A DNA stretch of 64,000 nt from Pyrenula massariospora. Its lineage: Eukaryota; Ascomycota; Eurotiomycetes; Pyrenulales; Pyrenulaceae. The notes under the pieces were generated by a model that worked only from the letters and a program-made list of their open reading frames with translations, had not been told where the DNA came from and ran no database searches. Below, in pieces: positions 13,889-58,608 of this stretch (its first letter is position 1; every line of letters begins with the position of its first letter). Where the stretch lies: positions 992,001-1,056,000 of the forward strand of contig JAGFMI010000003.1 of assembly GCA_021030905.1 (NCBI GenBank). The letters are read 5' to 3'. The position numbers were made by a program, and so were the translations under genes.

Positions 13889-14770
13889 ATGCCGAAAGCC
13901 CAGAAAAAGACCACAGCTCGGTCCAATCGGCCTGATCCTCTCTCACCAAAACATACAAGTGCCACGAAAAAGCCAGCTGTTGGACGCCCCAAAAAGAATG
14001 GTGGTAAAGCAACTCAATCCGACGGTAGCACATCGGCTGCTACCGAAGCCGAATCCTCATCAACCGCGTAGACGAGCAAGAAGCTTGTCAAACCTTACAC
14101 TTCTTACATCCTCCTCTGCACATTAGCCTATACCTCCAACCCAACTATCATGCGCATCCTTTCTGTCCCTGGTCCCACTTCATTCGCCCAACTCCACCAC
14201 ATACTCCAAGCCGCGTTTGGCTGGGCCGACTGCCACGCGTACTCCTTCAAAGTCGAGGACATACCACAATTGACCAACGGTCGCGTCACGCGACTGCCGT
14301 CGACACTGCTGGATATTGCGTCTGAGATGAACATGCACTGGATACGAGACTTCGCTGCGGGCCACCATGACATTCTCGACGAGAAAAAGGCCACCCTTGA
14401 GGACGTCTACGGGCCGGGGTCGAAATATCGCGAGGGGATGCTGGAGTACGAATATGACCACGGCGACAGCTGGACCCATCAAATCACCTGTCTCGGGCAG
14501 GCGGACCCGGCGCTCCGCCTGTCCTTCCCTAAATTTGATCAGGATGTCTTTTGCATGGCGGGGGAGGGGCATCCGTGTGCAGAGGACTGTGGCGGGGCCC
14601 CGGGGTGGGAGGATCTGAAGGAGTTGTTTGTGAAGAAGGAGAAGAAGGATCCCGAGGGAAGGAGGCAGTGGTACAAGACTTTTTGTGCGAATGGGGATAA
14701 AAAGGGGTTGGATCCATGGAAATGGAATCTGTTTGACGTAAACAAGGCGCTGCGTCCCTTCAAAGTCTGA
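13889..14770 (+). pseudogene. plasmid pRiA4b ORF3-like gene with an in-frame TAG
   Basis: The frame runs from the ATG at 13889 (MPKAQKK, a Lys/Ser/Thr-rich tail) to 14770. It is interrupted only by a TAG at 14069-14071. Downstream, the same frame gives KPYTSYILLCTLAY, then RILSVPGPTSFAQLHHILQ with AFGWADCHAYSF, GDSWTHQI, EDCGGAPGWEDL and the end motif FDVNKAL. These are the successive motifs of the pRiA4b ORF3-like fold (IS1096/plasmid-derived family, molecular role unknown). The first strand of the domain lies between the TAG and the next ATG (14150), so starting at 14150 would truncate the fold. No intron with acceptable borders removes the TAG in phase. It may be a nonsense allele, an unseen intron or a shortened but working protein from 14150 (206 residues). 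Confidence 0.75.
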
Positions 14771-31962: not shown

Positions 31963-34050
31963 GTGAAGAGTATTTTCGATTTGTCATTCTTAGGTATTGA
32001 CCTTAAGGATTACGAGATCTTCGCACTTCGTGAACCAGATGACGAAGCGAATGGTGATATTGATAATATCTCAGTTGCTTCATTTGAATCCGGCGACAAG
32101 CCTGACGACGAGTCTGGGGATAAATGCCATTCTGAGCATTCTATGTATGTTCATGATTCGAGTAGCATTGAAGATGCACATCACGTCTACAACAAACTTG
32201 ACCACAGAGTTCTGGAGATTCGACTTTTGACAGTCGAACCAGCTGGTAACAAAGAGTCCGAGATACGGTGTACTTTAAACCATGTCAATCTTGGCAGCTC
32301 TCCCGAAGATCAACCTGTGTAAGACGCCATTTCATATGTCTGGGGGAATGCTGAGAAAAAGCGCATGATATTCATATGTGGAAGACCTTTCCTTGTAACG
32401 CTCAACCTATTTATTGCGCTGCAATATTTGAGGGACTCGGATAAGCCCAGTGTCTTTTGGATCGACGCTATATGCATTAACCAAGACGACATTATGGAAA
32501 AGAGCCATCAAATTCAGCGGATGAAGCTTATCTACGGCCAAGCCGATCGAGTCTTAATTTGGTTGGGAGAATCCGACAAGGACGTTCGCAAAGCATTCGT
32601 CTTCCTTCAGCGCGTAAAGCTTCAGGATTCTCCGTTCGACAAAACTCTTCCTTTCATACCTGGATTGTGCAAAATCTATGAAAGACCTTGGTGGTATAGA
32701 ATGTGGGTGGTTCAGGAAGCTTTTTCTGCAAAGACTCCGCCAATTATTGGATGTGGACGCAAATGGGTTCCTTTCGAGAAAGTACTGGGACCGATCTTCG
32801 GTTTCAGAGAGATTTTACCCCTGCACGGTCTACAACTCCAAAACATCCAAGCTCTATCTGTCCTTAGGACCATGTTTAATGTGAAGCATACGTTGAAGAA
32901 CTTTTCACTTGACGAAGTTGTCAGCACTGGGAATATAAGAGATTTTGGGGCCCTTCTCAAGGCGACATCTGATCGCCAGGCAACTCTGCCCGTTGATAAA
33001 ATCTTCGCAATCCAGAGTCTTGCGCACGAAAAATTACCGGAAGATCTACTCCCTGATTATAATCTTCATCATAGCTTTGTCTATCAGAAAACTATGTTCC
33101 ATGTTCTGAAATTCCGACCGGATCTGAATTTCCTATTTCATACTATGAATCAGCGCAAATTGAACATCCCGTCATGGTGTATAGATTTCTCACAGACTTG
33201 TTGGTCTGAGTACATTAATCAACCACAAATGCTATTTCTACAACAGGACGCGGATGAGCTGCTCTCGGCAGCTTATAAGCAGTCAACAAAGGCAGCCCGC
33301 GATTCATTCCTGAGGGCATCTGTTAGCCAGAATTACAGGGCAGCCGAGGCCCAACAAGCTGGTGTGGCTGCAATCTCGAGAATAGGAGCGTCTGCCAATA
33401 TGCCCAAGTCTACAATCACGCACAGTCCATCTATAGACACTTTGGAAGTATCAGGATCTATAATCGGTTTGATCGAGCACGGAAGCACCATTCCAAACGT
33501 GTCGTCAATCGCACATCATGCGAGCTCTGCTCTTAAAAACCGGTTTGGAGTACCCGAAGCGCTCAAGATGCTTTCGTCTGGTTATGTTGTGAAAATTTGC
33601 AGTCTTCTAGATATACCTTATTCTGGAGCTCCAGAGGACCAAATGCACTTACAAGAAAGGAATATTACCTTAGAGAAATATATGCGAAGTCGGTCTGAAC
33701 GTTACCGCCTGGTATCGCAAGAGTGGTCTGAACTTGATGCTTCATATCTTCATTTCCCGGAACATGAGAAAGAGGAATGCGAAATGGCCATGGAACAAAT
33801 TTTCATGAAGATAATCGAGCTGTATTTGGTGGTGACCGATACCAGTTATCTTGGATGGGCTCCGCCAGCTGTCAGCATTATGAAGGGAGATATTCTTTGT
33901 ATTCTTTACGGATGTGGTGCTCCAGCCATTCTCAGACAGAAGGGTGACACCTCTCATGAATTGGTGGGATTTGCATGTATTGAGGGGATAATGATGGGGG
34001 AGTATTTCAAGAATGTTGAACGGGATAGCCAGGTCTTTCATCTGTGTTGA
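31963..34050 (+). pseudogene. HET-domain gene with in-frame TAA
   Basis: One reading frame runs from 31963 to 34050 and is broken only by a TAA at 32320-32322. Before the stop the sequence holds the usual lead into a HET domain (RVLEIRLLTVEP). Directly after it come AISYVWG, FWIDAICINQDD, a LIWLGES core and RPWWYRMWVVQEAF, a complete HET domain. The family normally has a residue such as Tyr at the stop position, so the TAA sits at the domain's first strand. No intron could remove it, because the motifs on both sides are contiguous. The first ATG after the stop (32365) would drop the SYVWG strand. No ATG opens the frame at 31963, so the 5' end is unresolved. The likely state is an inactive allele. 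The C-terminal 350 residues are unrecognised. Confidence 0.75.
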
Positions 34051-34998: not shown

Positions 34999-37283
34999 CT
35001 AGGTATCCCGATGCTTTGCCACGAGTTGCCGGAACGCTTCTTGAAATCCCTGTGGAGGAGATGGACGAGCCACCGCGATCTCCAATGCCGTCTTCCCATT
35101 TGCGTCTTTTGCGTCCCACTTAATACCGTCTATCTCTGCATCGATCAGGATCTGAATTGTTTCGACGTCAGCTTCCAACGCAGCTGCGTGCGCGATTGAA
35201 GTCCCGGCGTTGTTGACGTGGAGGTGATTTGCATTCTTGTGCAGCAGTAAGCGAAGGAAACCATGGCTGTCGTGGTAGATGGTCTCGAAAAGAGGCGTGT
35301 CGCCGTATTTTCCGGTCTGTTCTATGTCGGCGCCTTTTTCAAGGAGCAAGAGACCAACCTCGACCTTGTTTGCTATGGCGGCTCCGATGAAAGGTGTGAT
35401 TTCTTGCTTGTTCCTACAATGAATCGAAGCTCCGGCCTGCAGCAACAGTTTTACTAGTGCGAGGTCATTCTGATGAGTACTTGCATAATGAAGAGCTTGA
35501 TTTCCGCCATCATTCTTCTGTACGACTTTGGCACCTGCCAAAATCAGGAGTTCTAGTGTCCGCAAACTACCTGAGGAAGCTCCGAACATGAGCGGTGTTG
35601 TCCCGGCTCGGTCTTGTACGTCTGTCTCGGCACCCGCGTCCAAGAGTTGCTGGACTTCTTCATGCTTCCCTATTCTTGCCGCCCAGTGAAGAGGGGTCCG
35701 GTCTTTGAGATCCCGGACATTTACTTGGGATTGATGGTCGGCACTCTGCAGTTCTGTGGTAAGCTTCAGAGGATAGATACTCAATATGACCTTGTGCAAG
35801 TGAGATAGCTCCCACGTTTCGAAAATGTCATTCTCAGGAAAGATTTGTCTGAGTTCATCAGCTTCTTTAGGATCGCCCTCCCATGTAAGGATGTACTCCC
35901 AGGCTATTTGATGCGGGGAGCTACTCTGCGGATCAGCCACAATTTCACAACAATGGAGTGTATTTGCTTACATATTCCTCTGGTCTATGACATGAGGGTC
36001 GGCTCCGGCAGTTATCAGGAATTTGCAGGTGTCGATCTGTTTATGTAACACTGCGTACTGCCGAATCGTCAGTTTCATACAGAGTTTTTTGTCAAAAACC
36101 AAAAAACTCAATATACCACGTACGTGTAGTGCTGTCCGTCCATAATCAGGGTCAACATCCGTAAGGGAGGCGATCTTCTTGTCTAGCAGGAGTCTGAGTC
36201 CATAAGTATTTCCAGTCAATGCTGGTCGTAGGATATTGTCGTCTCTCCCCCAAGCGACGACCCTTGCAAAAGAAAGCCCAAAAACTGGGTCACCAACTGA
36301 TGTAGTTGCTGCTACAAAATGTACAGCACGCGCCATGAACCATTGAGGAAAGCAATAAAAGACGTCTAAAGCACGGTTTATGCGAGCTTTGCAAGTTGTA
36401 TTGCTACAGCCAGATGCCACAACAGGTATTCCAGAATAACCCACGAAGAGTGTTCCGAGCAATGCTTTCATGAATGAGGGCGTCTGATATGAGGTTGAAA
36501 AATGGCAGCTACAGTCGCAAGACAACTTGTTACAGGTATTTCTACGGCCTTGAACGAATCGGATCGAGTTTGAGCTGTCTTGATATGACAGAGAAGATTT
36601 GGAATTTTGAAGTAAAAGGCGTTCTGGGACCTGAAGCGCATCTGTATACTTTATCAGAAATCAGCAAAATTTTCATTAGGAAATTGACTTTTTAACTCAG
36701 CTGTAGGTACTTCTTGGTCGTTGGAACGGCCTAAATCCGTCCTGGTAGCCTTACTAGATGTTACTGTAGAGTACTCAGATTGGATAGTGATGTCTCGAAC
36801 AAGTATGCTTGTACAGCCCCACAGATGTAAGTGATACTTGCCTCGGGTATTATTTACTTACGGAACTCACAAGGTGCCAATGCTAAGTATTTCTTGTAAT
36901 TCACACCTTGCTTTCATCAAAACTTTTCGTGTTCTGCTGACACGCCCTTTTTCTCGCAACCAATTGTACTTCAATCGCCCGCGATTTGTTCCATTAAAGG
37001 ATTTTTTTATTAACTCTTCTAAATCTGTCAATCCAACCTTCATTGCATTAAGCTTTCTCTCAGTCGCAGCCGTTATGCTTGGTTGGACTCGAGCTTCTTT
37101 TTCGAAGGTAGGATAAAGTGTATCGAGCAATCCTTGAATCTCGACTACTTCGTTGTTCAGCTGTGCAATTTCATCGGGAGCATTGCGCCAATTCCGGATG
37201 GCACTCTGCAGGGCTTGGGCGCAGGCTGTTGATGCTGATAGAATGGTCAACGCACTAGCTGCAGCTGACAGTGGATCGGCCAT
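34999..37283 (-). CDS. HeLo-like N-terminal domain plus ankyrin-repeat protein
   Basis: Five exons: 37283-36871, 36807-36711, 36648-36124, 36057-35972 and 35923-34999. Introns are 63, 62, 66 and 48 bp, all phase-consistent. The sum divides by three and gives 681 residues. Residues 1-137 start MADPLSAAASALTILSAS and form the helical N-terminal domain seen on many fungal STAND proteins (HeLo-like/Helo_like_N group, often membrane-acting or signalling). A Cys-rich middle follows (CDCSCHF, then SFMKALLGTLFVGYSGIPVV), a module regular in fungal ankyrin proteins. Then come about eight ankyrin repeats from residue 335 (DPDYGRTALH, RTPLHWAARIGKHEEVQQLL, TTPLMFGASSG, QALHYASTHQ, NGKTALEIAVA). No NACHT lies between. 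A role as effector or sensor in allorecognition is inferred from architecture and from the HET neighbours. Confidence 0.85.
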
Positions 37284-37700: not shown

Positions 37701-38885
37701 ATCCCTCGTAGACATCTATATAAAGGCGCGATATCCACTAAGGAAGGAAAGACACACGCTCATAAGGCGTGAATGTTTGATGAAAGTAGGGGGCCATTTG
37801 TGGGGCTCAGCGTGGGTGATGGGGATGAACAAGCAGTTGAGCAGGAACAAAAAAGGGTGTCTATCCTAAGCACCTTAAAATGACACTGAACCGAAGTCAA
37901 GTCCGATCCCATAATAGCTACAGTGTTCCGCAACAAGTTTGGGGATGAAGCAAAAACCACCCCTTATTTTAAAACTTAGATAATTACCCCAAATAATTAA
38001 AATTATTTAATAAAACTAGTTTTGATAGATACTTTAATAAGTTAATTATTAGTTATAAATTTTAAATTTAAAAAATATAATATATAGCTTCAGCAATAAA
38101 ATTTATAAAACTTGGAAAATTTAGTAAAAAATTGAAAATTTTAAATTTAATATAATTACTATATATTAACAGCTACTAAGAACTTTTATATATATAAATT
38201 GAAATTTATATCAAAATTAATTTGTATAAAGATTTTGATGATTAGTTTATAATAAATTAATAAAATTATAATTTAATAAAAAAAAATTCTCTTACACTTC
38301 TACATACAAATTTTGAAAATTTTCAAGTTTTCTGTTTAAAGTCACTAAGTTTAAAAATTAATAACTTTTTATTTAATTAATAAACTTTATTTGAGATTTT
38401 CATATTATATAAATTAAACTCACCATTTTATTCTTTATATATAAAAGTATTTATAGAAATAGCTATAAATAGTAATAAAATAGATTAAAGTAAAGCTAAG
38501 TTTACACCAAAATTTTAAATTATTATATCTTTATGGATATTTAGAATTTTAATTTTAAAATTTTTACAAAAATATATTAAAATATAATAAATATAATGTA
38601 TAATTATTATATATTATTTCCTATTCAGTTTAGTTGTTTTTTAAAATTAAAGTGTGATGGGGCCGTTTTGAAATTTCCCCAAACTTGTTGCGTAGTACTG
38701 TAGGCCCCATTCTTCAGCCTCAATGAGCCTCGGAGAACTCAGTAAGGCTGACACTATCTGTATAGAGTAAAGCCACCCTGATTGACCATGCCCTACAAAA
38801 GAGGTACATCTGCCGCCAAGAATGATGGGTTCACGAGGTCCTTCGGTCCTACACTTAGCCCCATGTTTGGGCACTCCACCTACGG
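37701..38885. repeat. unclassified duplicated segment, copy 2, interrupted by a transposon
   Basis: This segment matches copy 1 at both ends (37707-37790 and 38785-38875). Between them it has a 780-bp AT-rich element with terminal inverted repeats. The element therefore probably landed in this copy after duplication. Confidence 0.45.
37921..38700. mobile_element. decayed Tc1/mariner-type element with TIRs and TA target duplication
   Basis: The ends are inverted repeats: CAGTGTTCCGCAACAAGTTT on the left (37921) and the reverse complement of CAGTACTACGCAACAAGTTT on the right, ending 38700. A perfect 16-base core is CGCAACAAGTTTGGGG. A TA dinucleotide flanks both ends, the target duplication of the Tc1/mariner/pogo group. 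The inside (37960-38645) is about 85-90 percent A+T and has no transposase frame. The 780-bp length is about half that of an active element. It is either a RIP-eroded deletion derivative or a non-autonomous element. Confidence 0.75.
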
Positions 38886-38887
38886 CG

Positions 38888-39033
38888 TCCCTTGCTAATC
38901 GGTAATGGGCAACTTTTCCGCGTCCCTATAAAGTAGGCCTTGCGCCCCTATAAAACGGGCTATGTTACCCCGCACGCGCCGGGAACTGGGCGCCCCTTAG
39001 AAAAAAACTTGCCCATTACCGACTAGTAAGGGA
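38888..39033. mobile_element. MITE, family M1, copy 1 (146 bp)
   Basis: Terminal inverted repeats: left TCCCTTGCTAATCGGTAATG, and on the right the reverse complement of TCCCTTACTAGTCGGTAATG, continuing as GGCAA. A TA follows the right end. The left flank is CG, so that half of the target duplication appears changed. The inside is GC-rich and non-coding. It shares its ends with the copy at 43243-43462. Confidence 0.7.
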
Positions 39034-43653: not shown

Positions 43654-45651
43654 TCAATCGACAATGAAACTTTTGATCTGAAGCTCCTTACGGCTTTCAA
43701 GTTCCAGGGCTTCTGCGTTCATCAAGCCGTGCACATAGCACTCGGAGACAAATTCGAACTTCTCGCTGTGCTGGCGCTGACGTAAGAGGAAAGGCACGGG
43801 AGCGTTTATGACCACGATTACCAAATCTCCCGGCTTGCATATTACTGGACCGAGGCCTATCCGACCGTTCTCAGTAATGATGTAATTCTCCCTCCTTGAA
43901 GTCAATGCAATATCGAGTTTGAAATCTTCGAGGGATTTGGAGGAAGTGATTGGGCGTCCATCTAGTCTATGCTGGTAGAGATCTAGAAGATCAAAGTAAT
44001 GTTTTCGCCGATCCGCCAGGTTAAGTCTGTGGTCATCCCACTTATTTGCGATTAAGGTGCACAAGTGGGCATTTAGAACTTGATCTGAAACGTTATCTTG
44101 GGGGTCCAGCATTGAACTCTCCTTTTGACTGTTCTGAGGCTGGTCGCTTGTCGTACTGCTGGTCTTGTGTCTTCGAAATGCTTTGACTGCTCTTTCAAGA
44201 CATGCACGCTCCCAAGAAATGAAGGCAACGGCGTCGGAATATTTGTAGCCCAACGAGGATTCATCAGGTGAACGAGGCGATTCCAAGTCAGCAACAACAT
44301 CTGCTATCATACCACGTACGACAATAGCATCTGAGTCATCCAGCACCTCGACCAGACCATCTTTAGACTCTTTCAGCTTGTCATTTTGGAACCCGGCGTG
44401 ATACCTACCAGTTTTTGCACCGTCTGCAATTGAGGTCCGAGAAACGGTTTTGCGGAAGTCTGGACACCAAGATGGCAACCCCTCCGTTTCGTTGCGACTG
44501 AATGCGCAGGTCAACACAAAAAAGCGGATGTCCCATGTTAGAATCCACTTGCAGCACTCAAGATACACTTGATGAGCTGGTTTCGAGTAGTCGATTTTGA
44601 TATTATCTTGAGCGTCAGGGTACGCCATGCCGAGGAGAGCATAGACACGGTCAGCATCCAAGCTCGCGTTTCGCAAAGAACCGCAGCGGATCAAAGTTGG
44701 TAGGTCCATATAGTGGGTACGCCTGTGGAATCTTCGAGTGGTCGCTATGTTTACCAAGGACGTCTGTTCTCCAGGCTGCAAGGCGTCCGCTTTTTGTGGT
44801 TTCCAGTGTTCGAAGATGTCATCGCGAGGCATGTTCCCCTCGTTCAGAAAAGCTTTTCGACGATGCCATAATGACATGAATTCGTGCATACCAGCCATTG
44901 CAGTGTGGTGGAGGCGTCTCGGCATCTCATCGTGAGTCTCTGTAGCCTGAATCCATTGGTTAACGTGGCCCAGCGCCATTGCGAGATCAGACATGCTCTC
45001 CCAATCAATGACCTGTAATCCAAAATATAACTTGACACGGTCAGCCACCATTATCTCCTGTAAAACCCAGATTCTCCAAAACCATTCGCTCGAGAACAGG
45101 TGGTGGAGGCTTTCCCATGCCTGCGACGCTATGTTTTCTTCCTCCAGATACTTCGTTATAATTGTGTTGGGAGGTGAGTCCAGTGGCAGCTTGTAGAGGG
45201 CCTCTTGCAATTCATAGAGGCTCACGTTTACTAGGAGTCCTTGTGGTGGTTCTCCGAGGTAGGCGATCACCATTGTGGCAGCCGCGTAGATGAACACCAT
45301 CTGACCGACTTGAGCACTTTTCTCGGCATTGTTCGATTGATTGATACAAATCTGATCTGTCCATACTATCCGAGACTGGCCCGGTGAGACCAACCTCCGA
45401 AGAGCGCAAAGTAGATTGGCGCTGATTTGGAACGCCTGGCCATCGCACACGAACGGGTGCGGAGAGACGTCGGATCCCCAGACATAGGACAGAGCTTCAT
45501 ACTCAGGCGGATCTTCCGATTCAATGTCGTGTATGGTCAGGCGACCAGCAGGCGAGTCTAAATGAAACGGCCACTCCAATCTCAACAGCCTTATGCTGCC
45601 TCTTGGCAAAGGTTCGAAGGTGTAAGGCTGAAGTTGGATCTTGGATTGCAT
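43654..45651 (-). CDS. HET-domain protein
   Basis: Intact single-exon frame of 665 residues. The HET domain runs from about residue 50, with YEALSYVWGS, IVWTDQICINQSNNAEKSAQV (read in two parts) and the WFWRIWVLQEI motif that closes the core. LDADRVYALLGMA and the GLPSWCPDF motif follow at the usual spacing. A C-terminal block has the GRIGLGPVICKPGDLVIV segment that ends many such proteins. HET proteins trigger cell death after recognition of non-self partners, usually through an unlinked or adjacent partner gene. The nearest candidates are the AAA+-HET gene 1.8 kb away, facing the other way, and the GST-side repeats. No extra domain was recognised. Confidence 0.92.
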   Translation of the reverse strand: MQSKIQLQPYTFEPLPRGSIRLLRLEWPFHLDSPAGRLTIHDIESEDPPEYEALSYVWGSDVSPHPFVCDGQAFQISANLLCALRRLVSPGQSRIVWTDQICINQSNNAEKSAQVGQMVFIYAAATMVIAYLGEPPQGLLVNVSLYELQEALYKLPLDSPPNTIITKYLEEENIASQAWESLHHLFSSEWFWRIWVLQEIMVADRVKLYFGLQVIDWESMSDLAMALGHVNQWIQATETHDEMPRRLHHTAMAGMHEFMSLWHRRKAFLNEGNMPRDDIFEHWKPQKADALQPGEQTSLVNIATTRRFHRRTHYMDLPTLIRCGSLRNASLDADRVYALLGMAYPDAQDNIKIDYSKPAHQVYLECCKWILTWDIRFFVLTCAFSRNETEGLPSWCPDFRKTVSRTSIADGAKTGRYHAGFQNDKLKESKDGLVEVLDDSDAIVVRGMIADVVADLESPRSPDESSLGYKYSDAVAFISWERACLERAVKAFRRHKTSSTTSDQPQNSQKESSMLDPQDNVSDQVLNAHLCTLIANKWDDHRLNLADRRKHYFDLLDLYQHRLDGRPITSSKSLEDFKLDIALTSRRENYIITENGRIGLGPVICKPGDLVIVVINAPVPFLLRQRQHSEKFEFVSECYVHGLMNAEALELESRKELQIKSFIVD

Positions 45652-46260
45652 GACGCTGGGAGAAAGAATGAATTACGGAAATGTAAGCTAGGCCTTATCC
45701 CACAGAGCTTCCAGGAGTCAAGCAGCCTGTCGAAGAAGTGTGAGGTGAGATAAAATCAGAGCGCGATACAAAAAAGCCCTAGATTACGGTAAGTAATCTC
45801 TGAACCAATCGGATGCCTCCAAACTTGCAGACTAGGGAACGATAATGATACTTTATCGCGGTAAATCATCGTCCCATAAAAAATTTACCGCAATTACTAT
45901 AGCATTCATCGGTAGGGCCAACGCTTAAGCTTGCTCAAGACCAGCGCAGGCTTGGCAACCCAAGTTCAGGTATGGCACAGCCACAGCTCAGGACTGCTTC
46001 GTCACAGCTTAGAGCAGCTTGGCCTCAGCTCAGGTAAATGACTGTAAGCTCAGGTCCAAAAGAGGAAATAGACTTTGGTGAGGTCGTTCTCACACATAGT
46101 TTCTGTTGCTATAGAATAAAACAAAACTGACCGACCCCTTTCTGACTGGCCTTATGCCGCTTCATGCCAGCTAACTCAGGACCTAGCTCAACTTCGACTC
46201 AACCTCGATCAAGCTGTACCGCCACCGGTCATGCGATCATTTCTAATGATATTTAACTTC
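45652..46260. other. intergenic, divergent side; no gene
   Basis: About 600 bases upstream of the HET gene. It has palindromic GCGGTAA/TTACCGC strings near 45856-45893 and a run of AGCTCAGG-type repeats (45960-46050). No gene was seen. Confidence 0.45.
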
Positions 46261-46659: not shown

Positions 46660-47457
46660 CGCTTGTGGTGGAAAGTGAAGGAACGTGAGGCTCTTCCTGG
46701 AAGATGGTTGGTCGGGGCACTAGATTGCGTAGACACCACCATTAACGCCACCGATCGCCTCGGTTGGTGGGGGGACTGCAAGCGGCTGGCAAAACCCGGG
46801 CTCTCTGAGCCATTGGAAAATGTCTACCTATCAACACCAGACTGCGCAGTAAGTTACTCCTGCAAGAATTCGCATTGGCGGCTAAAGCTCTGAAGTTAGA
46901 TTGGACAACTTGTTACCAGTCATGTGCCGGAAAGGTCTAGTTTCGAGTGCGAAGGCGAATGAGTTCCAGATTTCGCGCCGTCGTACAACAGCGATAATCG
47001 CAAGGCAACCACGAGGCAGATTTGCAAGGTAGCAGCCTTCAGATAGCCACTAAAGCTCGAGAGCGATCTCGCGGAGAAGCCGTAAAATATCTCGACAAGT
47101 CTATAAAAAGCTATTCATATCAATCATTAAGCTGGTAGAGACAGGTTCTCACATTATGTTGGTGGATCATTCCCTGTAGGTTCTCAATGTGGGATGCCGC
47201 ATGGTAGTACAGGACGTGCGATGTGGCGGACAACTCCAATTTCTCGTTGTGACTGTCTCAGATGTGGCAGGCAGCCTAACGCAAATGGGGAAATCTCAAG
47301 CCTCCCCCATAGCAAGACTTTCTTGCAACTGTAGACCTCCTTCATTGAATGTCACTTCTGTTTTTGATGATCTTAAAACCTCTCATCGTGTGTTGACCCC
47401 ACATATGTTTCTGATTCTGAAGGGAAAAATTTGGTGTCAACCTCGTTAGCCAATAGG
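46660..47457. other. intergenic, upstream of the AAA-HET gene
   Basis: About 800 bases. It must hold the promoter and any 5' exon of the AAA-HET gene. No repeat or separate gene was identified. Confidence 0.45.
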
Positions 47458-50400
47458 ATGTCCGCCTTAGTAGATGCCCTACTGGGGGTTCTTGGGCTTC
47501 CGCCGTGGTATTTGGATAACTTTGTTAAGACATCATCTGAGTTGAGCAGATCAGAAGTTCGACTTGTGTTACGGAACAACAATCCTTCCGAGAATGAGGT
47601 TAGTTCTAATCCAGAGGCGCAATTAGACGTATCAGACAAATATGAGCTGGAATCATTTATGTATGAGGACATTCTTGATGCGCTCATGTGCGCCGAAGAC
47701 GATGATATATCGAGTTTGAGGACGCCAGAGACTCCTCTCTGTCTGATGAGATCATTTTTCGTCAACGATGCTGTTCTTCTAAGGTTCCCAGGAGACAGCA
47801 GCGACGGTCAAGGCTTCCTGACTGCTGTAGCAGAATATTTAGCCAAGGACATTGGGGCGCATTTGGTGGTATTAAATACTGAAATACTGGAAAGTCTGGA
47901 AAAACACTTCATTGAAAGGGGTATAATCCAGCAGCCCACACAATCCACTGAAGATGTTGACCTCTCTTTTCAAATGTACGGTCCCGACACAGCACCGACA
48001 GCAAGAAGTTCCGTTCCAACTGAGCCGAGGCCAAAAAAAAATTTCAAAATGGCTCTTACTGCTCCTGTCTTCAAAGAAAGAATGGATATAGATTGGAAAG
48101 CAGATGAGCCGCATTCAGAGATACTTCTTGTTCTCATTACTGATATGTTCGACCTCGAAGTACGAAAGAAAAGTAAAAAGATATTTCAGTATCTTCGAGA
48201 CGCTATCGAAGAGCTTACCGAGCAGGGCTACCACGTCATTCTAATTGCAACAGACCATGGGACGGGGACTACCTGCACGTGTAAGAGCTCCGATAAAAGC
48301 TTTGACGAGAGCTCCGTTGAAAGCTTCGAGGAGAGCTCTGATGATGGCTATTGCACGGGATGTAAACGCACGAAGGACTCTTTCGTGCTCTCCAAGATCG
48401 GAAAGAGTCCCGTTAGGAAAGCGATTGAAATAGTTCCGGTGAGATCTGAAAGGCAAAGGCTGCTGCTTCAGAAGGATAAGGAGATAGAAATAGAGGGACA
48501 AAACCTCAAGAAGTTGCAACAAGCAGTGCAACAACAATCTGTGAGCATGGACTCAAAATTACTGCAACCATACGCCGTCTGGAGACTTCCTGAGAGTAGT
48601 CCCGCTCTGAAGGTATTGAGGAGCTCCCTATTCTCAGAAGAGAAAGTGAGGTTAATTGCTCAGACTATCTGCAAGAACCTGACAATTAAATCCATTGATA
48701 ATGCAATTACCGCCATTTCTAGACAGCTCGATGCTCGAAGTCGCCGAGCCTGTGCACGAGACAAGGCATTGCGTGAGTGGAAAATAGGAAACAATGATGA
48801 TGGTAACCAAACGTCGATGCTTCCGTCGCATGTCCTGGACGCCAAGATGCGGATAGAAGACGACAAGTGGAAGTATAGATGGGAATCAAAGTTGCTGAAG
48901 GCTATTGTTGACCCCGGTAAGTCTTGTCTTGCTCTTCTATTTATCTAGGAAAATCCATTTTGAATTCACAGGATTATCGTTCTGACGTACTTGAAGGTGA
49001 TGTACATGAGACCTGGTCAGATATCGTGATAGAACCCAATATCAAAACTACGATTGAGCGAATGTTTTCCACTATGGTTCCTCATCCAGGCTCTTACGGC
49101 ACTCTCAAAATGGCTCGCGCTGGCGGCGCTCTATTTTATGGTCCACCTGGCACAGGTAAAACACACCTTGCAAGGGTGCTTGCGAAGGAGTCAAAGGCAA
49201 CAATGATCCAAGTGTCCGGAGCGGAGATTGAAAGTGAATATGTGGGACAGACTGAGAAACTTATCAAGGCTCTATTTAATCTGGGTAAAATGCTTTCCCC
49301 CTGCATCATATTCGTTGACGAGGCCGACGCTTTGTTTTGTGCCCGCAGCAAGTATGATGGAAGCTATATAAGGAGCCGAACGAGTTCATTACTCAGCGAG
49401 TCAGACGGACTGCGAAGATCAACCAATGCGCCCCCTGCCCTAATTCTTGCAACCAACTATCCAAGCCATCTTGATCATGCAGTCATGCGTCGGGTCCCCT
49501 GGAGGGTTTATATGGGGCCCCCAGCTCATGATGCCAGGAAGAAGATGTTTGCCATGAATCTAAGAAATGAGCATGTAAATTCTTGTGTTAATCTTCAAGT
49601 TCTCGCCACAAGGACGCATCGCTATACAGGATCAGACATTAGGACAGTGTGCATCCAGGCTGCATCGGTATGTGAATCTGAGCTCGCTCGTTCAGAGAAT
49701 GCTCAGTTGAATCAGAGGAGGCTGTTAAAGATGGCACATTTCGAAGAGGCCCTGAGAATTTCCGGACCAAATCTGACAAGAGCAGCAGTACAAGAAATAA
49801 AAGATTTTGCCGAGGAATTTGATCCCTCTACTTTGGAGTCCATCCGCGAGTTCATGGAAAGAAAGCAAATATCTACGCCAATAAACAAGCCAAACGCACG
49901 TAAGCGAAATGAAAATAAAGAGCATGAATCACGACAAGATACAAGGAGTGATGTAACTTGCGATCCTCCTGGACTTCCTGATAATGCTGAATCTTCAGAA
50001 GATATCTCAAGGGAAGTCAATCCAAGCAAGAATCAGTCAGCTTATGCAGCCTCGGGATCTACGCATGAGCTATTAGAGAAGTCAGGTTCCGAGATTAGAC
50101 TAATAGAGATCGTACATCCGGGATCAGCAGACAGAAAGGCTGAATGTGTTCTTCACAAAACTTCTCTCTCCGACAACGCAAGGTTTACAGCTCTTTCATA
50201 CGTTTGGGGCGATCCTTCGCTAAATGAAAACATCATACTCAATGGAAAGACTGTATCTGTGACAAAAAGCTTAGCCAACGCCATCCGATGGGTTAAGCAT
50301 CACTGGCAGGAGACCTTTCCGGACCGCGAGGGAGACGAATTTCGACTTTGGGCTGATGCCATCTGTATAAATCAATCTGACTTGAAAGAACGAGATCACC

Positions 50401-51083
50401 AAGTGGGGCTTATGGGAAAAATATATTCCAGCGCTGAACTTGTCATCGCTTCGGTTGGCCCTTACGAAAGCACTATAGGTCTTGCACTACAGACATATCA
50501 TGATATGTATGAGGTCCTGACAAATAGTACTCCAGTACTGAGCCTCGAAGAGCTCTCCAGTCGTAGATGGCTCCTAAGACTGCCTTCTTTATGTTGGGTG
50601 GATGGAACATCCTATCCTAATACGGCTTGGGAGGCTCTGAAAGTCTTTTGGAAACTGCCCTACTGGCAACGAGTGTGGATAATTCAGGAACTTGTCCTGG
50701 CTCGTCGGATTTTACTTATCTGTGACCACGTGTCTCTGGACTTCAAGATGATAAGTGAGGTGGCATCTATTTTAAGACTCTCGGCATTAGTCAGGCCATC
50801 GAAAAAGGATGAGAAATCCGAGTTTATCCGAGAAGAACCTTGGTGTTCAAAATGTTATTGGGACTTAGGAGAACCTATCCCCTTATTCACGATATATGAA
50901 TATAGAAAAGACGTGGTTACCAAATGGCACAGGAAGCTCAACGTGCACCACCTGGCATCAACACTTCAAGCAACAGATCCAAGGGACTATGTCTACGGGC
51001 TTCTAGGCCTTAGTAAAATTGAGGTCGAAGTGAATTACGCAAAGCCAGTAAGCCACGTGTATTCAGATTATGTCAGGTACTAG
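47458..51083 (+). CDS. AAA+ ATPase (Msp1/ATAD1-like) fused to a HET domain
   Basis: Exons 47458-48916 and 48997-51083. The 80-bp intron has GTAAGT, a TTCTGAC branch and a GAAG acceptor. The join gives VDPGDVHETWSDI, which continues the normal lead into an AAA core. The product is 1181 residues to a TAG. Residues 1-480 form a first, degenerate ATPase-like half (LMRSFFVNDAVLLRFPGD ... VVLNTEILESL), as in tandem fungal AAA proteins. The AAA core follows: Walker A GPPGTGKT near 535, pore-loop region EYVGQTEK, Walker B CIIFVDEADAL near 590, sensor ATNYPSHLD, arginine pair AVMRRVPWRV, and sensor-2 TGSDIRTVCIQAA. A charged linker (about 700-850) leads to the HET domain: FTALSYVWGD near 882, LWADAICINQSD near 937 and VWIIQELVLAR. 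ATP hydrolysis could gate HET signalling; that is inference. The ATG at 47458 is the first in the frame. Confidence 0.88.
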
Positions 51084-52046
51084 ACTCAGACACCAATCGC
51101 TTCATTATCTTGCGACTGTAACGTTTTCCTGGATATCGATATCTTCCTCTCGAAGGCCGGAATTGGTGTTTGGGAAGTAGACGATGGATCTCCTTCTTGG
51201 GTTCCAGATTTCTCTCAAAAACCGCAATGGTATCAGCACCTCGATTTTCACAAAATAGCCCGACATTGTTGTCCATGTTCTCATAAAGAAGAGGAGCAGC
51301 TCGTGATTGACTATCCTAAACTCTTAGTCAACGGGGCTCGGGTTGGACATGTTAAAAGAACCACTGAAATCCTTCGGGACGACACCGTTAAGGGTGAGCT
51401 GCCCTTACTACATCGCAGCTTTTATGATCATATGAGAGAATTTGTACTGCGAAACCATGAATACATTACGGGTATCAAACCCTTACAAGCAATTTTCCGA
51501 GTAATCTTTAAGGTTGATCAACCCGTTGATCAAGAATTCGTCATGAAAGGCTATCAGTTCTTTGTGAAGTTTGCTTTTCTTAGATTTAAAGGCTGTGATA
51601 TTGGTCACAGGCCGTACGATGCCATTCGGATCATTGACCCCAATTTTCGAGAAGCATTCGACATTGATGACCGTGAGGCCTGGCTTGAGTGGTTTCTCCG
51701 AAATTTCTCCCCAGGATCCGAGAATGCGATTGACACGAATTCCATTGAAGAATATCTAAATAATGGAAACACTAGTGACGACCGACGCACCGAGTTGATG
51801 AATGTAGCAAATCATCGATTCTTTGAAATCGAAGGAGGGTACCTTGGTCTTGGGCCACAGTTGATGGCACCAGATGATGAGATCTGCCTTCTCAAACAAT
51901 GTTCACGTCCAGTAGTCCTTCGAAAGATTGAAGACCACTACGTGCATGTTGGGACTTGCTTTGTTCTAGGACTGATGAAAGACGAAGAGAGGGCTAAGAT
52001 TGTAGGGGCTGGTGATATCAAATTAGTACGGTTTGAAATCCACTAA
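51084..52046 (+). CDS. C-terminal continuation of the AAA-HET frame after an in-frame TAG
   Basis: The frame of the AAA-HET gene is open again from the TAG at 51081-51083 to 52046. It encodes what the HET proteins carry at this place: FLDIDIFLSKAG followed by GSPSWVPDFS, the late IEGGYLGLGPQLMAPDDEI block, and a final FVLGLMKDEERAK. So it is the natural C-terminus, 320 residues. AGGTACTAG at the border contains a GT donor, but no acceptor in phase was found within the next 150 bases. It is a nonsense mutation, an unresolved intron, or a protein ending at the TAG. Confidence 0.7.
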   Translation, partial: TQTPIASLSCDCNVFLDIDIFLSKAGIGVWEVDDGSPSWVPDFSQKPQWYQHLDFHKIARHCCPCSHKEEEQLVIDYPKLLVNGARVGHVKRTTEILRDDTVKGELPLLHRSFYDHMREFVLRNHEYITGIKPLQAIFRVIFKVDQPVDQEFVMKGYQFFVKFAFLRFKGCDIGHRPYDAIRIIDPNFREAFDIDDREAWLEWFLRNFSPGSENAIDTNSIEEYLNNGNTSDDRRTELMNVANHRFFEIEGGYLGLGPQLMAPDDEICLLKQCSRPVVLRKIEDHYVHVGTCFVLGLMKDEERAKIVGAGDIKLVRFEIH

Positions 52047-52089
52047 GATTACCGCCTTGTTTTGCGAACAGCTTATACAAACGTCAACG

Positions 52090-52890
52090 TCTTAGCACGG
52101 AGCACGTAAGCCGATAGATAGCATGCTGCCAATTCAAAATTTGCGCTGAAGGTGTGGATTTATGCAGACCGCCCCAGAGAAACACCCCAAATACATTACA
52201 AGGGGCATTCCCAGAGGCACGCCTCAGAGGGAACCCCCTTAAAAGATTCCCTAAAAGTACCCCCTAGAGATGTTCTTGAGGGTATCTCTAGAGATACCTT
52301 TAGAGGTATATGTCACGGAACATAGAATAGAGTAGAGTTCTACCCCGTATCCGCCGGCGTTACCAAAGAACTAAGTTGACAGTTCGTTGTCAAGCTCCTC
52401 TACTAAAATAGATAACGCCCTAGACCAGCAGACTATGAAAGACAATATACATTTTATATGTTCATTACAAAATTATGTCGGAGGCGCCTGCTAAGCCCCC
52501 TAGCCCCCGCCACTATATAGAAGCGTAATAAAGGCACCTTCGGAAAAATCAAATGTTCGTTTAGTAGCTCTTTCAGTGTTAATGCTCGGAATCCAACAAA
52601 GTCATAAACAACTTTGTTATTTCTTTACTGCCTGCACCCACCATCCAAACTCCATTCAGACCTGATTCGGTCCTCCTATTACGTCGTTCCGTAGCTGCTC
52701 GCTGGCGCTGACACATTACATAGCTTGCCTCTAAACGTATCTCTAAGGATATCCTCAAGCATACCGCTAAGGGATGTCTATGCAAGCGCCCCTAGGGATG
52801 TCTCTGAAGTATATCTATAAACAGCGTCTCGGGCCCTTTAAAAAGACACATCCAAAGCCACGCACCTTCAACACACGGCAAAATCAACTC
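52090..52890. repeat. dispersed repeat R1, copy 3 (long, interrupted)
   Basis: The head at 52102-52152 has GTAAGCCGATAGATAGCATG, then CTGCCAATTC and GCGCTGAAGG. A body of degenerate CCCYTAAAAG/AGGCAYRCC units follows (52165-52310 and 52731-52810). The tail (CTATAAACAG, CACCTTCAACACACGGCAAA) matches the tail of copy 1. About 400 bases of unrelated sequence (52320-52725) split the body, including a small AACAAAGT/ACTTTGTT hairpin (52598-52621). Confidence 0.5.
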
Positions 52891-54063
52891 CTAAAATCAA
52901 AAAACCAAATTACCAGCATACCACCTACACCCTCCCAGACACTAACACCACCAGAACAATAGAAACCCAACCATTTTCTCCCACAACCTCCAAACTACAA
53001 CCCAATCTCACCCCATCTCACCCCCACCCCCCAGCCCTCTCACAGCCCAGGCGAACAACAACACCCTCAACCATCGGCGCGCGGGCCCAGAACGATCATA
53101 CACTACCGCCTATCTCATTCTACGTAAAGGGGGTGGGAGCAGAAAGAGTTTCAACCTCTACTTAGCAAGGTATGCCTGCTTAACGAGGCTGCGATGTTCG
53201 ACAGATACCCAGGTAGGTCCGTCTACGGGGCGTGTGCGCACGTCGGATGGTACTTAGGTAAATTTTTCTAGAGTTTTGCTGGGTAGAAGTTGGGATACAG
53301 ATGGTCAACTGGGTGGAGGGGGGTTATCTAGGGTCGGGGTGATGCTAGTGACTACGGTAATACCGAAAGGTGGGCGGTTTCATGTGGGGTTAGGGGTGGG
53401 AATTGGTGGCGGTAATGCGGGATACGATGAGCTCGTTCCGGGAAGAAGGGGCTGAATTTGTTGTATATAACCGTCCGTTCCGCATTTACTAGTATAATCT
53501 ATTAGCAAGGATCTCCTGGATCCTACCAGTCCAGCAATAACACTAGGTGCAACGTCACTTTCACAGAGAACTTAAATAATACCTTGTCATGATAGATTGT
53601 AAGGAAAACATATTTTGCAGCCTATTGGGCTACTCAGAAGCTTGATCTCTAGGCATAAGGCACGTGAACTCCCAGAACTGTTTGCATGTTCTTGAAAATT
53701 AGAGCGTCCAAAGAGTAACGCTATAGCATTGGTACGTGGGTGAAAGCAGAAGAGTCACTTCAGGCTATCCCTCCAATTCTCGAGATTATTTGTCCGTATA
53801 GATTCCTGCCATGAGAGATCGCCGGGGAAGATACCGTACAGCCCTGAGTTGCCCTGAGTTGCCCTTCAAATCTGTCGGAGGACTAGACAGACCAGGGAAA
53901 GAGTCTAGAAGCATCAAGCCATCTCGTTCGGGTTAATTAAGACTGAACGGCCAATGGTGTGAACTCGTTGGCATTACAGGGTGGACCGCTAGAAAGAAGG
54001 TTGCGTATTTGCAATATGAAGATGCACATTCCTTAAGCTGAAGGCTATAGGTGGGACAATGGA
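52891..54063. other. intergenic; C-rich, G-poor tract
   Basis: From about 52860 to 53060 the plus strand is almost free of G, rich in C and A, and stop-poor. It changes abruptly to GC-rich and then mixed sequence. The rest to 54063 has no gene or repeat that I can name. Confidence 0.5.
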
Positions 54064-54636: not shown

Positions 54637-56655
54637 TCACTTCTCTTCCTCTCGCTGCAATTCAAGGTCAGACATATGCAGCGTAATCCAGCTCGGAATA
54701 GTATGAGCCGGTCGAAGAGCGGTGTACCCACAGATCCGGAGCACATATGCGGATATATGATTTTCCACCGTTGGCTGCCGCCGCAAATGAGCCGTCAGAA
54801 AAATATTCTGGTCTAAAAGAACAACAGATCGACCAGATTTGCTGTCTAGATCCGCCAGAAAGGCACCATGTGGGTGTGTCTTCTGCTGGAATAGCTCTGC
54901 AAGTGAGGATTCGCTGACGGGCTCGCGCACGATCTCACACCAAGGGCGCCTGCGGTGGAAGCCGACGAGGATTGCAAATGGGGCTGTGTTTTTGTAGTGA
55001 GACGTCTCTAACAAGACGATGCCCACGACTGGGGGTTGTTCCTCGAAAAATATTTCATCCAAACTCCATATCTTGTACGGGTAGACTGAAAGTACATGGC
55101 TCGGGATCGAGTCGGTGGATTCCGGAGTTTCTATCTTGATGCGGCCCCAATGCTTCTCAGATTTACCTGAAGGAATAGCACAAGGAGAGTTTGGGTTCAA
55201 GAAACCATTTGGAAGCGCATACAGTTCTTTGAGAGTGAACTCTTTGAGCAGATTCGCAGGAACAGTGACCAGCCAAGGTGCTGCATATCGGTAGGAATGT
55301 TGAGTTGTATGTTTGGAGTCGAGTAGAATACACAGAAGGCGAAATCCGATTCGACAATAGAGCCAAGCTGTTGATGGAATATCAGGGTTGGTTGATACCC
55401 TTACGGGCAGACTGATCTTGAGGCCCCGGCTACTAAGGCTTGGCGGCTCTTTTGGCTCGAGGCTTTGCAACAGGCCCTGACTGATGTCCTCCTCGGCATG
55501 GGAAATGTTTTCAAATGCCATGGAGAGGCTACCATTTTGGATACATCGTCGTAGCCGGCGAAAGTCCTTTTCGTGCAATATTCGGTACCACGGCTTGATC
55601 CCAAGTGATGAATAGTCATGTTCGAAGAGGCGCTGTCCCGTCTCTTTGTCGTCACGATAGTGATAATATCCATCATAGTGGATCTCGCTTGAAAATTCTG
55701 GGAAGACCATCCTCGAAGGACCACGTTGCGAGAACTCGGCAGGTGAAGATGCGAGCAAACCTGTCACCGCATCTTCACAGTCATACTGGAGCGACCATGC
55801 AAAGATGCTGTAGTCCTCCTCTTGCTTCATTATTTGCTCTTGCAGTCGCACGAATGACTTTTCCCCCTCACCATAAAGTAAAGGCATGTTGATGCCAAAA
55901 AGACCTAATAACGAATATGCCTTATCCTCCTCGCGGGTAGTATGCCGCTCACTCGCCCATGACATGCGTTCGGCAACAGTACATGTTGATGGACTTTCCC
56001 CACGGAGTATATGAACCGGCACACGAGTGACGGCAGAAACCTGTACTGGCAAATTCGCCTTCGTTCCTATTTCGGTCCACTCTGCGGTATAGAACTCGAC
56101 ATTCTTTGGCGCAATCAATTCTTGCAAAGTCCAACCTCTCGTGAACCATCTACTCTCATGGAATTCCAGAGGAGAAAATGTGGTCCGCGAATTCTCGTCT
56201 ATAATAATGCTAAAAACTTTGTTCTCCTTGTTATGTTTACCTTCAAGCCTTTGTTTTTGGGCGCATAGCAATTGTTGAAATGAAAGCTGGTATAGGGCGT
56301 TTGTGCTCCTCAATCGTGGCAATGCGGCAATTGTCACATCCTGAAGATATGCGTAGCACACAGTGGATTGGTGGTACCATTCGAACATCGAATTGATGGC
56401 CTCGGATAACTCAGCGCTACTGCTCTTATCGATGCAGCATGTGTCAATCCATACCCAGCTAAAACCGTCTTCTTTAGCCTTTGTACAGCAGCCCTTGACT
56501 TTTGCAAACCCTCCTTTAAATTTTGCCGTTCCGCTTCCAATGTCTTCGAACAACACTTCCGCTTCACCCCATGTGTGACTGAGGATTGCATAGGGAGGAA
56601 TATAAGAGTGTAGAAAGTCGTGAAGTTGTAGCGAGTCTGTATTGAGCAGCCTCAT
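54637..56655 (-). CDS. HET-domain protein, HET-E/HNWD type
   Basis: Intact single-exon frame of 672 residues. It starts MRLLNTDSLQLHDF and PPYAILSHTWGEAEVLFEDI, the form found in HET-E/HET-D and the HNWD proteins. VWIDTCCIDKSSSAELSEAI, a tyrosine-rich core, RWFTRGWTLQELIAP, TVAERMSWASERHTTREED and AYSLLGLFGINMPLLYGEGE complete it. These motifs are in the usual order and spacing, apart from an inserted polar loop of about 45 residues before RWFTRGW. No NACHT or WD repeats follow; the remaining 340 residues carry no known domain. The role is non-self triggered cell death by family analogy. The start at 56655 is the natural first residue of the domain. Confidence 0.92.
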   Translation of the reverse strand: MRLLNTDSLQLHDFLHSYIPPYAILSHTWGEAEVLFEDIGSGTAKFKGGFAKVKGCCTKAKEDGFSWVWIDTCCIDKSSSAELSEAINSMFEWYHQSTVCYAYLQDVTIAALPRLRSTNALYQLSFQQLLCAQKQRLEGKHNKENKVFSIIIDENSRTTFSPLEFHESRWFTRGWTLQELIAPKNVEFYTAEWTEIGTKANLPVQVSAVTRVPVHILRGESPSTCTVAERMSWASERHTTREEDKAYSLLGLFGINMPLLYGEGEKSFVRLQEQIMKQEEDYSIFAWSLQYDCEDAVTGLLASSPAEFSQRGPSRMVFPEFSSEIHYDGYYHYRDDKETGQRLFEHDYSSLGIKPWYRILHEKDFRRLRRCIQNGSLSMAFENISHAEEDISQGLLQSLEPKEPPSLSSRGLKISLPVRVSTNPDIPSTAWLYCRIGFRLLCILLDSKHTTQHSYRYAAPWLVTVPANLLKEFTLKELYALPNGFLNPNSPCAIPSGKSEKHWGRIKIETPESTDSIPSHVLSVYPYKIWSLDEIFFEEQPPVVGIVLLETSHYKNTAPFAILVGFHRRRPWCEIVREPVSESSLAELFQQKTHPHGAFLADLDSKSGRSVVLLDQNIFLTAHLRRQPTVENHISAYVLRICGYTALRPAHTIPSWITLHMSDLELQREEEK

Positions 56656-58608
56656 GATAGATGTACGGATTAAGATCTGGGCTTAAGATGATTGGGAATG
56701 GCAGTTTCAAGGTCGACTGACGATCTAGCCACAACCACGAAGTGGTACCTTGAGAACAAGATAGCTATGGCCGGAGATAAGATAGAGGAGAAAGCGTCGA
56801 CTCGTCTTGGATTGCAACCCTCTTAGCTTATGTTGCACCATATAGATAAGATAAATCACCCAAGGACAGGCGTAGCCAACACCGAGTCAAGTCAGGCGCG
56901 AAGCTGATACACTAGCACTTACCGCGAGAGTAAGCATTCTACTCTCCGATATGTGGAATAACCATCCTCATCTAATCAAATATAGTTCGTTAATCGTCGT
57001 GTGAGACTCCGATAGCGGGGCCACCAACAAGACAGCCCTGACAAATTTCGAGGCTTGGGCCGAAGGGCCTAGAAATCGTGGCGCCCCAGCCCCTCACCCC
57101 GATTATTAGCCGGAATGGCTGCCAGTTATAACATGAGCCCTATCGGTCCGAAATAAACCACCGACGGCCATGGAAAGGCGAGCATTCTCGGTAGAAATCC
57201 TCGCCCTACTTCCACAACCGGGCTTGCGCACCGCCCCGTCTGGCCGCACGGCCTGCTATAAAAACTCATCGGCAGACAGCACACCAAATACCTTCCCATG
57301 AACACCTGTGCACAGACGGCTCATGGTAAAACTTGCTACACGAACTGTCTGTGGAAAGATAGATATACCGTTTCTTATAGAGCGCCGTCTGCTTTACTGT
57401 TTGAGATATATCGAGAACTGTTTACGGCTGATCCTGGACACTCATCTACTATGGTCGGAGGGGTTTGATTTTTTAGCGGCCTCCAAACACCCCCCCCTTC
57501 ACCGCTTATATCATTTATGTGGGGTTACTCTGGCTGTTTTTATATAATGTACATTCAGTTACCAACTGCACAGAGGACCCACTGAATTTTAAAACTCCTC
57601 CGACCATAGTAGGTGAGCCAGGACGATCCAGCGTTCCGAACCGTGGGGATTTGCGGACCCTAAATTCATACCTAAGCCTAATGAAGATAGTGTGGTGTTC
57701 ATTTCGCCTTGCAAAAATGAGGGTAAATAAATTACCCCACCATTTGTTCCGTGCTTCTTATTTACTTTTTTCTTCTTTTTCGTGGAGCCCGCCCTCGCTA
57801 GCTCCTTGTCTTGCTACCCACCTTGCTGTCCACATTCCTATCTGCCTTACCACCATCTTGCTGCCTACCTCGCTGTCTGGCTTGCTGTCTACCTAGCTGT
57901 CTACCTAGCTACCTACCTTTACCTGCTTTACACTGCCCCGAAAGCCGTTTATTCTCAGTATTGTCCTACTCGATCATGTCTGTACTAATTACCGTATTAA
58001 ATATAGCACGGAAGATGGATTGCCCATAGGTTTCATGGATTGGATTTGGGGTCGAATTACGATCCATGGGCAGAGTTCGGATCGCTGCTTCGACCTTATG
58101 CTAGGAGGTAAAAAGTCGGGTTTGCGAAACTACAAGGTGTCCTCTGTCGTTACACTTTCGATAGGATGTCACAGAAGTGCTTAGCCATCACCGTTCATGA
58201 TACAATTAGCCCCGTAGAGAATCGGTTTGCGTAGAATTATGGGTATAGTACAATGAACTAACACATCTTAAGGCGACAAAAAGAGAGTCAGGGTTGAGCT
58301 TGGTTCAAAATTCGCAAAATAAAGCGTGCTCAAAAGCATTTGCTTTTTCCACCGCATTATTATAAGTCGGAAATGCAAGCGTTGCCACGAAGTTGGTCAA
58401 GAAAGAGAGACGCCGTACACTGAGTGCACTATCCAAAAAGGGATTTTCTGGCATCATCTGGAAGGGACTGTTTTGGCACTCCAAGTAATCATGATGGGAG
58501 GGACCATCATGGCCGAAATGAGACTTCATTTGCTTTCGCATTCAGTCTTTGTTCCTTTGGTCCTCGTCGTAAGATAGCTCAGGGCTTTGCATCATGGGTT
58601 CGGTTGAG
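56656..58608. other. intergenic with degenerate tandem repeat
   Basis: About 1.95 kb. From 57795 to 57925 there are degenerate copies of CTGTCTACCTAGCT/TTGCTGYCTACC (7 to 9 units), which also form palindromes around CCTAGC. A string at 57312-57355 (CACAGACGGCTCATGG onward) resembles 63552-63600. No gene is supported. Confidence 0.45.

Follow-up and report, generated by a model that had tools for sequence, protein, structure and literature searches.

In a 64,000-nucleotide stretch of the Pyrenula massariospora genome (hereafter the window; contig C27, positions 992001-1056000, of a 37.8 Mb assembly), one gene on the forward strand joins an AAA+ ATPase to a HET domain. Both domains lie in one reading frame, the ATPase motifs are present and the HET core is complete, with an in-frame TAG behind it. 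Our current best reading of this AAA-HET gene, held tentatively and with a little under even confidence, is the fusion of an AAA+ gene with a HET gene, working in ATP-dependent, ring-type activation of the HET domain. The initial annotation had described 47458-52046 as a single frame carrying a complete AAA core, a charged linker and a complete HET domain. The shared frame of AAA and HET was borne out, with all the named motifs located, and so were the AAA core and the open, charged linker. The single span did not hold, since exon 1 lies in another frame and the TAG cuts off 51084-52046; the HET domain is complete as the 146-position Pfam core, and the longer HET protein around it is cut by the TAG.

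An AAA ATPase core and a HET domain in one frame

The frame 48921-51083 (+) runs uninterrupted for 720 codons and holds the Pfam families PF00004, PF17862 and PF06985 (Table 1). Its ATPase motifs are GPPGTGKT at 49140, YVGQTEK at 49239, IIFVDEADAL at 49305, ATN within 49440-49457, MRRVPWR at 49485 and YTGSDI at 49623; we take the first five to be Walker A, a pore-loop-like motif, Walker B, sensor 1 and an arginine pair, respectively. When aligned with the genome's Msp1-type gene (L016) and with the AAA paralogues described below, Walker A and B, sensor 1, the arginine pair and the lid were all found, as in a classical AAA protein. The HET part, with SYVWGD at 50196 and AICINQ at 50358, belongs to PF06985 by a full-length match above the cut-off. 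Its nearest HET frame in the genome, among the matches listed, is the stand-alone C11:1991680 (52% identity over 125 aa; 32% over 270 aa). A sequence search of the PDB gave four matches to the HET part, none of them convincing (E 0.43 or worse), and the HET protein had no match in viral contigs, in a scan that detects close relatives only.

The ATPase had been called Msp1/ATAD1-like, a label that, from sequence comparison, is right for the wider AAA group and wrong as an identification. Orthology with Msp1/ATAD1 was rejected: the best PDB matches of L016, a separate gene, are Msp1-type proteins (6pdw, 494.6 bits; 5w0t, 'Protein MSP1', 323.6 bits), and the window AAA groups with the paralogues C13:496402 (880 codons) and C8:668210 (1016 codons, DUF7608), both 36-41% identical to its AAA part. 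In a tree of 18 AAA domains from this single genome (the best 20 of 34 matches minus L022 and L028, both missed by the Walker A pattern), the window domain and these two paralogues formed one group (100/99), which joined L016 and L015 (100/98). Both paralogues carry long N-terminal extensions and no HET domain, and their frames stop soon past the AAA lid region. The PDB ranking of the window frame was headed by p97/CDC48, for which both AAA domains of CDC48 count, so that the subfamily is not settled thereby. Among NCBIfam models, 47 matched the frame, CDC48 being the best (141.9 bits) and all 25 of the models shown lying below their cut-offs. Neither the AAA-HET frame nor exon 1 matched a NACHT or NB-ARC Pfam family above the cut-off (nSTAND3, 12.5 bits versus 27.2), and since these families stay below it, the protein does not class among the STAND (signal transduction ATPases with numerous domains) or NOD-like receptors (NLRs).

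The frame of exon 1 (47458-48916) differs from the AAA-HET frame, and therefore an intron is required to join the two. Twelve stop-free joins were listed, with alternatives to an 80-nt intron that include a 32-nt one (48917-48948). GTAAGT at 48917 makes a good donor, and for the acceptor CAG at 48971 only poor donors keep the frame. We prefer the 80-nt intron because the resulting AIVDPGDVHETWSDI spacing approaches that of an AAA paralogue (VVDPSKLQATYEDV), and it probably forms the junction between exons 1 and 2. Exon 1 matched no Pfam family above cut-off and gave three weak matches only in the PDB (E 0.12 or worse). Its residues 360-408 and 236-265 are marginally like the N-termini of the two HET-less AAA paralogues (hhalign probability 9.7% and 2.6%, respectively), with both scores beating 30 of 30 shuffles. 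No membrane helix stands out in exon 1: hydropathy over 19 residues peaks at 1.38 (residues 1-19), and the open frame of L016, in which the first exon is possibly missing, peaks at 1.25, so that the scan does not separate the two.

The 71 residues between the two domains bear directly on whether one gene or two are present. By chance, 213 nt stay free of stops in 1.4% of cases when the linker is resampled (first order) and in 2.4% when pieces are drawn at random from flanking non-ORF (open reading frame) DNA, both figures preceding any requirement for the same frame on both sides. This argues against two separate genes, that is, an AAA gene spliced to its own stop and a HET gene with its own promoter and first exon, as does the lack of an ATG in frame with HET between 49854 and 50196, the ATG at 49854, upstream of the linker, being the sole one in frame within 49780-50250. 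The unspliced reading moreover takes no added assumption. Two genes are nonetheless consistent with the donor-like sites at 49900 and 49948, from which 15 donor-acceptor combinations lead into another frame (stops there unchecked), with small upstream ATG frames such as that of 30 codons from ATG 49984, and with the statement, in an excerpt of PMC10197012, that HET is often the sole identifiable domain of its protein. We regard this arrangement as quite improbable. The donor-like GTAAGC at 49900 also has several in-frame acceptors in the linker region, and an in-frame splice from it, which is possible, would shorten the linker and keep the fusion.

The ends of related genes delimit the junction. 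The end of the C13 paralogue falls in the stretch aligned to window positions 49818-49907, and the stand-alone C11:1991680 frame has SRSEIRLLEI from residue 12 onward, counted from a putative Met start, where the window has SGSEIRLIEI at 50082. The junction sits just past the end of the C13 paralogue and just ahead of the start of the stand-alone HET frame, which is the pattern expected of a head-to-tail fusion of neighbouring genes.

Table 1. Positions of the AAA-HET gene, its parts and the HET and ankyrin-repeat genes around it in the window.
Feature	Position	Strand	Details
Exon 1, N-terminal region	47458..48916	+	ATG at 47458; 486 codons
Probable intron	48917..48996	+	80 nt, GTAAGT..TTGAAG; links the frames of exons 1 and 2
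Exon 2, with the AAA core, linker and HET domain in a single frame	48997..51083	+	ends at TAG 51081-51083
AAA ATPase core, PF00004	49131..49514	+	104.5 bits, 7.8e-30
AAA lid, PF17862	49587..49682	+	27.4 bits, barely above the cut-off of 27.2; YTGSDI at 49623
Linker	49869..50081	+	71 residues, 213 nt, 32% charged; charged/polar; no stop, no in-frame ATG
HET domain, PF06985	50184..50690	+	93.7 bits (cut-off 22.5), 1.7e-26, positions 1-146 of 146
Part behind the HET core	50691..51080	+	RDYVYGLLGL at 50982, NYAKPVSHVYSDYVRY at 51033-51080; ended by the stop
In-frame TAG	51081..51083	+	splits the AAA-HET frame from 51084-52046
Further open codons, same frame	51084..52046	+	320 codons; PSWVPDF and a C-terminal stretch like other HET proteins
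HET gene	15033-17525	-	
HET gene	32185-34050	+	in-frame TAA directly ahead of DAISYVWG
Ankyrin-repeat gene	34999-36660	-	two open stretches (230 + 322 codons) around a single in-frame TAA at 35968
Neighbouring HET gene, upstream, divergent	43654..45672	-	96.7 bits
Neighbouring HET gene, downstream, convergent	54637..56682	-	61.2 bits

The in-frame stop behind the HET core

Read plainly, the gene ends at 51083, past a complete HET core. A continuation past this core is common in full-length HET frames and not required; here it meets the TAG, and the remainder is open. The best other match of the stretch 51084-52046 is another HET frame (1.2e-9, 42% over 62 aa), and the motifs ahead of and past the stop, which share one frame, are weakly like those of other HET proteins (7.5 and 10.2 bits, respectively, with nothing between, in a small hidden Markov model built from the six HET rows of the spacing comparison below). 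This stretch may represent a former or an alternatively spliced C-terminus, and reaching 52046 would take read-through or an unusual splice. Each of the 27 in-frame, stop-free GT/GC..AG splices listed that remove the TAG also takes away NYAKPVSHVYSDYVRY wholly or in part, a block that resembles other HET proteins. Unspliced, the spacing from NY to WVPDF is 60 positions with the stop counted, versus 46-53 in six other HET frames. A 42-nt candidate intron at 51048-51089 (GTAAGC..CAG) gives a spacing of 46, inside this range, and would possibly restore the HET continuation, at the cost of VYSDYVR, which itself looks conserved. Removal of 84 nt from 51072 was rejected, as it leaves 32 residues between NY and WVPDF. 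In this strain, the TAG might shorten the protein behind a complete HET core, be removed by an unusual splice, or mark a copy starting to decay.

The last of these would make the gene a decaying or non-functional one, the product of a recent chance fusion in a HET cluster prone to turnover, real in the DNA and inactivated by the stop. The old C-terminus still open behind the TAG, the single full-length AAA-HET copy that a DNA search found in the genome, and the lone in-frame stop found in each of two other genes of the window, a HET gene (32.2-34.0 kb) and an ankyrin gene (35.0-36.7 kb), all point this way. However, about 3.5 kb of otherwise open frame have kept their ATPase motifs, the HET core is complete ahead of the stop, and the 42-nt splice could possibly remove the stop with a normal spacing. 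Since the unspliced spacing of 60 falls outside 46-53, a plain nonsense change alone does not account for the region. Moreover, open frames around one stop prove little alone, because the same pattern occurs at 3181 (-), antisense to a ThiF gene, where it presumably arose by chance. Taken with this evidence on both sides, decay appears to us somewhat unlikely, yet it has to be taken seriously.

Several observations nevertheless weigh against a working fusion. The TAG at 51081 terminates the frame past the HET core and weakens the switch or sensor role that we infer for the ATPase; the HET and ankyrin genes 15-19 kb away bear the same type of lesion; the N-terminal region hardly resembles the N-termini of its AAA paralogues; and the HET domain is C-terminal here, versus N-terminal in fungal NLRs as an excerpt of PMC4986451 describes them. 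The codon score of the linker (0.080, versus 0.013 to 0.089 in the other parts of the gene) is, like the others, hardly above zero, its contrast with other frames is largely a stop penalty, and it discriminates poorly, so that its likeness to the other parts supports the linker weakly.

Repeat-induced point mutation (RIP) was rejected as the source of the TAG, the dinucleotide indices over 47-52 kb being not RIP-like by the usual thresholds, and these unraised indices also speak against decay. Indices near or within the customary RIP-like range begin right downstream of the AAA-HET gene (about 1.1-1.2 over 52000-53999 and 1.0-1.05 over 57000-57999).

HET-rich surroundings

At least five HET genes lie in some 42 kb of the window (15033-56682), as counted in a survey in which 21 of the 26 frames of at least 200 codons were scanned with Pfam. 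Genome-wide, of 362 HET candidates 150 were scored, none of these falling below the cut-off, giving at least 150 HET genes; more than 100 are reported for some fungal genomes in an excerpt of PMC10197012. The HET gene at 32185-34050 is probably broken. By inspection among the matches listed, no second AAA-HET pair on one strand and at most 3 kb apart was found (the four lists scored the best 150 of 362, 51 of 51, the best 121 of 213 and the best 19 of 145 candidates), a weak negative given that two of these lists missed the window's own HET and AAA.

Short stretches flanking the AAA-HET gene, at 47098-47199 and 52104-52236, are 74-83% alike to places on contigs C12, C15, C29 and C30 of this genome and are probably dispersed repeats. 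Elsewhere in the window, an AT-rich island occupies 38001-39000 (26.8% G+C versus 48% in its neighbours), a PRiA4_ORF3 domain (103.2 bits), of a family named for a bacterial plasmid protein and found here in a fungal genome, lies at 14072-14770 (+), and a 1688-codon open frame at 4859-9925 (-) matches no Pfam family at E 0.001.

A possible ring-driven HET protein

Excerpts of earlier work present HET as a cell-death domain related to TIR, which often stands alone or sits at the N-terminus of NLRs (PMC4986451, PMC10197012, PMC12881547, PMC9815663), of which some 220-240 aa are enough for cell death when overexpressed (PMC12881547, in excerpt). From the same partial sources, HET-E joins a NOD/NACHT module to HET (PMC9815663), and HET-E, HET-D and HET-R, the HET-NACHT-WD40 NLRs of Podospora anserina, resemble the window protein in combining HET with a nucleotide-binding module (PMC4986451, PMC9815663). 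They differ in having a STAND/NACHT module, an N-terminal HET and a WD40 sensor, whereas the window protein has a classical AAA module, a C-terminal HET and an N-terminal region that matches no family. A HET with a lectin fold is found in het-B, whose BH (HET-HAD-lectin) is likewise a non-NLR HET protein with an extra module; as far as the excerpt of PMC10890737 goes, it has no ATPase and its extra module lies C-terminal to HET, the part past the HET core being cut by the stop in the window protein. Msp1/ATAD1 shares the AAA group and the corresponding Walker, pore-loop and arginine motifs, but is encoded by a separate gene here, and the window gene adds a long N-terminal extension and a HET domain. 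The C13 and C8 paralogues are closer still in their AAA and share the long N-terminal extension; they differ in lacking HET and ending past the lid. What appears to be new is the joining of HET to a classical AAA ATPase, the pairing of HET with an ATPase module being already known. Our searches, which covered open-licence papers, turned up no AAA-HET fusion, in agreement with the initial annotation, which knew of no system of this build.

We propose that, in a HET-rich stretch, an AAA+ ATPase gene of the family beside Msp1 was fused head-to-tail with a HET gene, giving a chimeric gene. Its AAA part would build ATP-dependent rings, which may gather several C-terminal HET domains. Given the geometry of AAA rings, these domains would sit on the side opposite the N-terminal region. 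Once the N-terminal region, or the ring through its pore, had sensed a stimulus, HET-driven cell death would be turned on, following the logic of HET-NACHT-WD40 receptors but with their STAND module replaced by an AAA+ ring.

Alternatively, the AAA part could serve as an integrated bait or tether, a decoy copy of a cellular AAA protein attacked by pathogens or non-self factors, with HET as the guard effector and ATP hydrolysis playing no part as a trigger. That HET proteins may bear other recognition modules, such as the HET-lectin of het-B (PMC10890737, in excerpt), and that paralogues of the AAA part exist in this genome are compatible with a decoy. By contrast, its catalytic motifs are kept, as in a working enzyme rather than a bait, and no partner was identified; we give this only a very slight chance.

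A working, ring-forming fusion remains the reading we favour, and it could extend to a whole class of immune receptors in fungi, with intact members in further strains or species. In these, a classical Msp1-related AAA+ ring instead of a STAND module would act as an ATP switch that clusters C-terminal, TIR-like HET domains and so kills the cell. We consider so broad a class clearly unlikely. Even a merely decaying chance fusion would still illustrate the joining of domains in HET clusters. If the favoured reading is true, a HET domain driven by a classical AAA+ ring would constitute a second type of ATP switch in fungal cell-death receptors, and point mutants of the AAA-HET protein would allow the link between ATP hydrolysis and HET activation to be tested within one protein.

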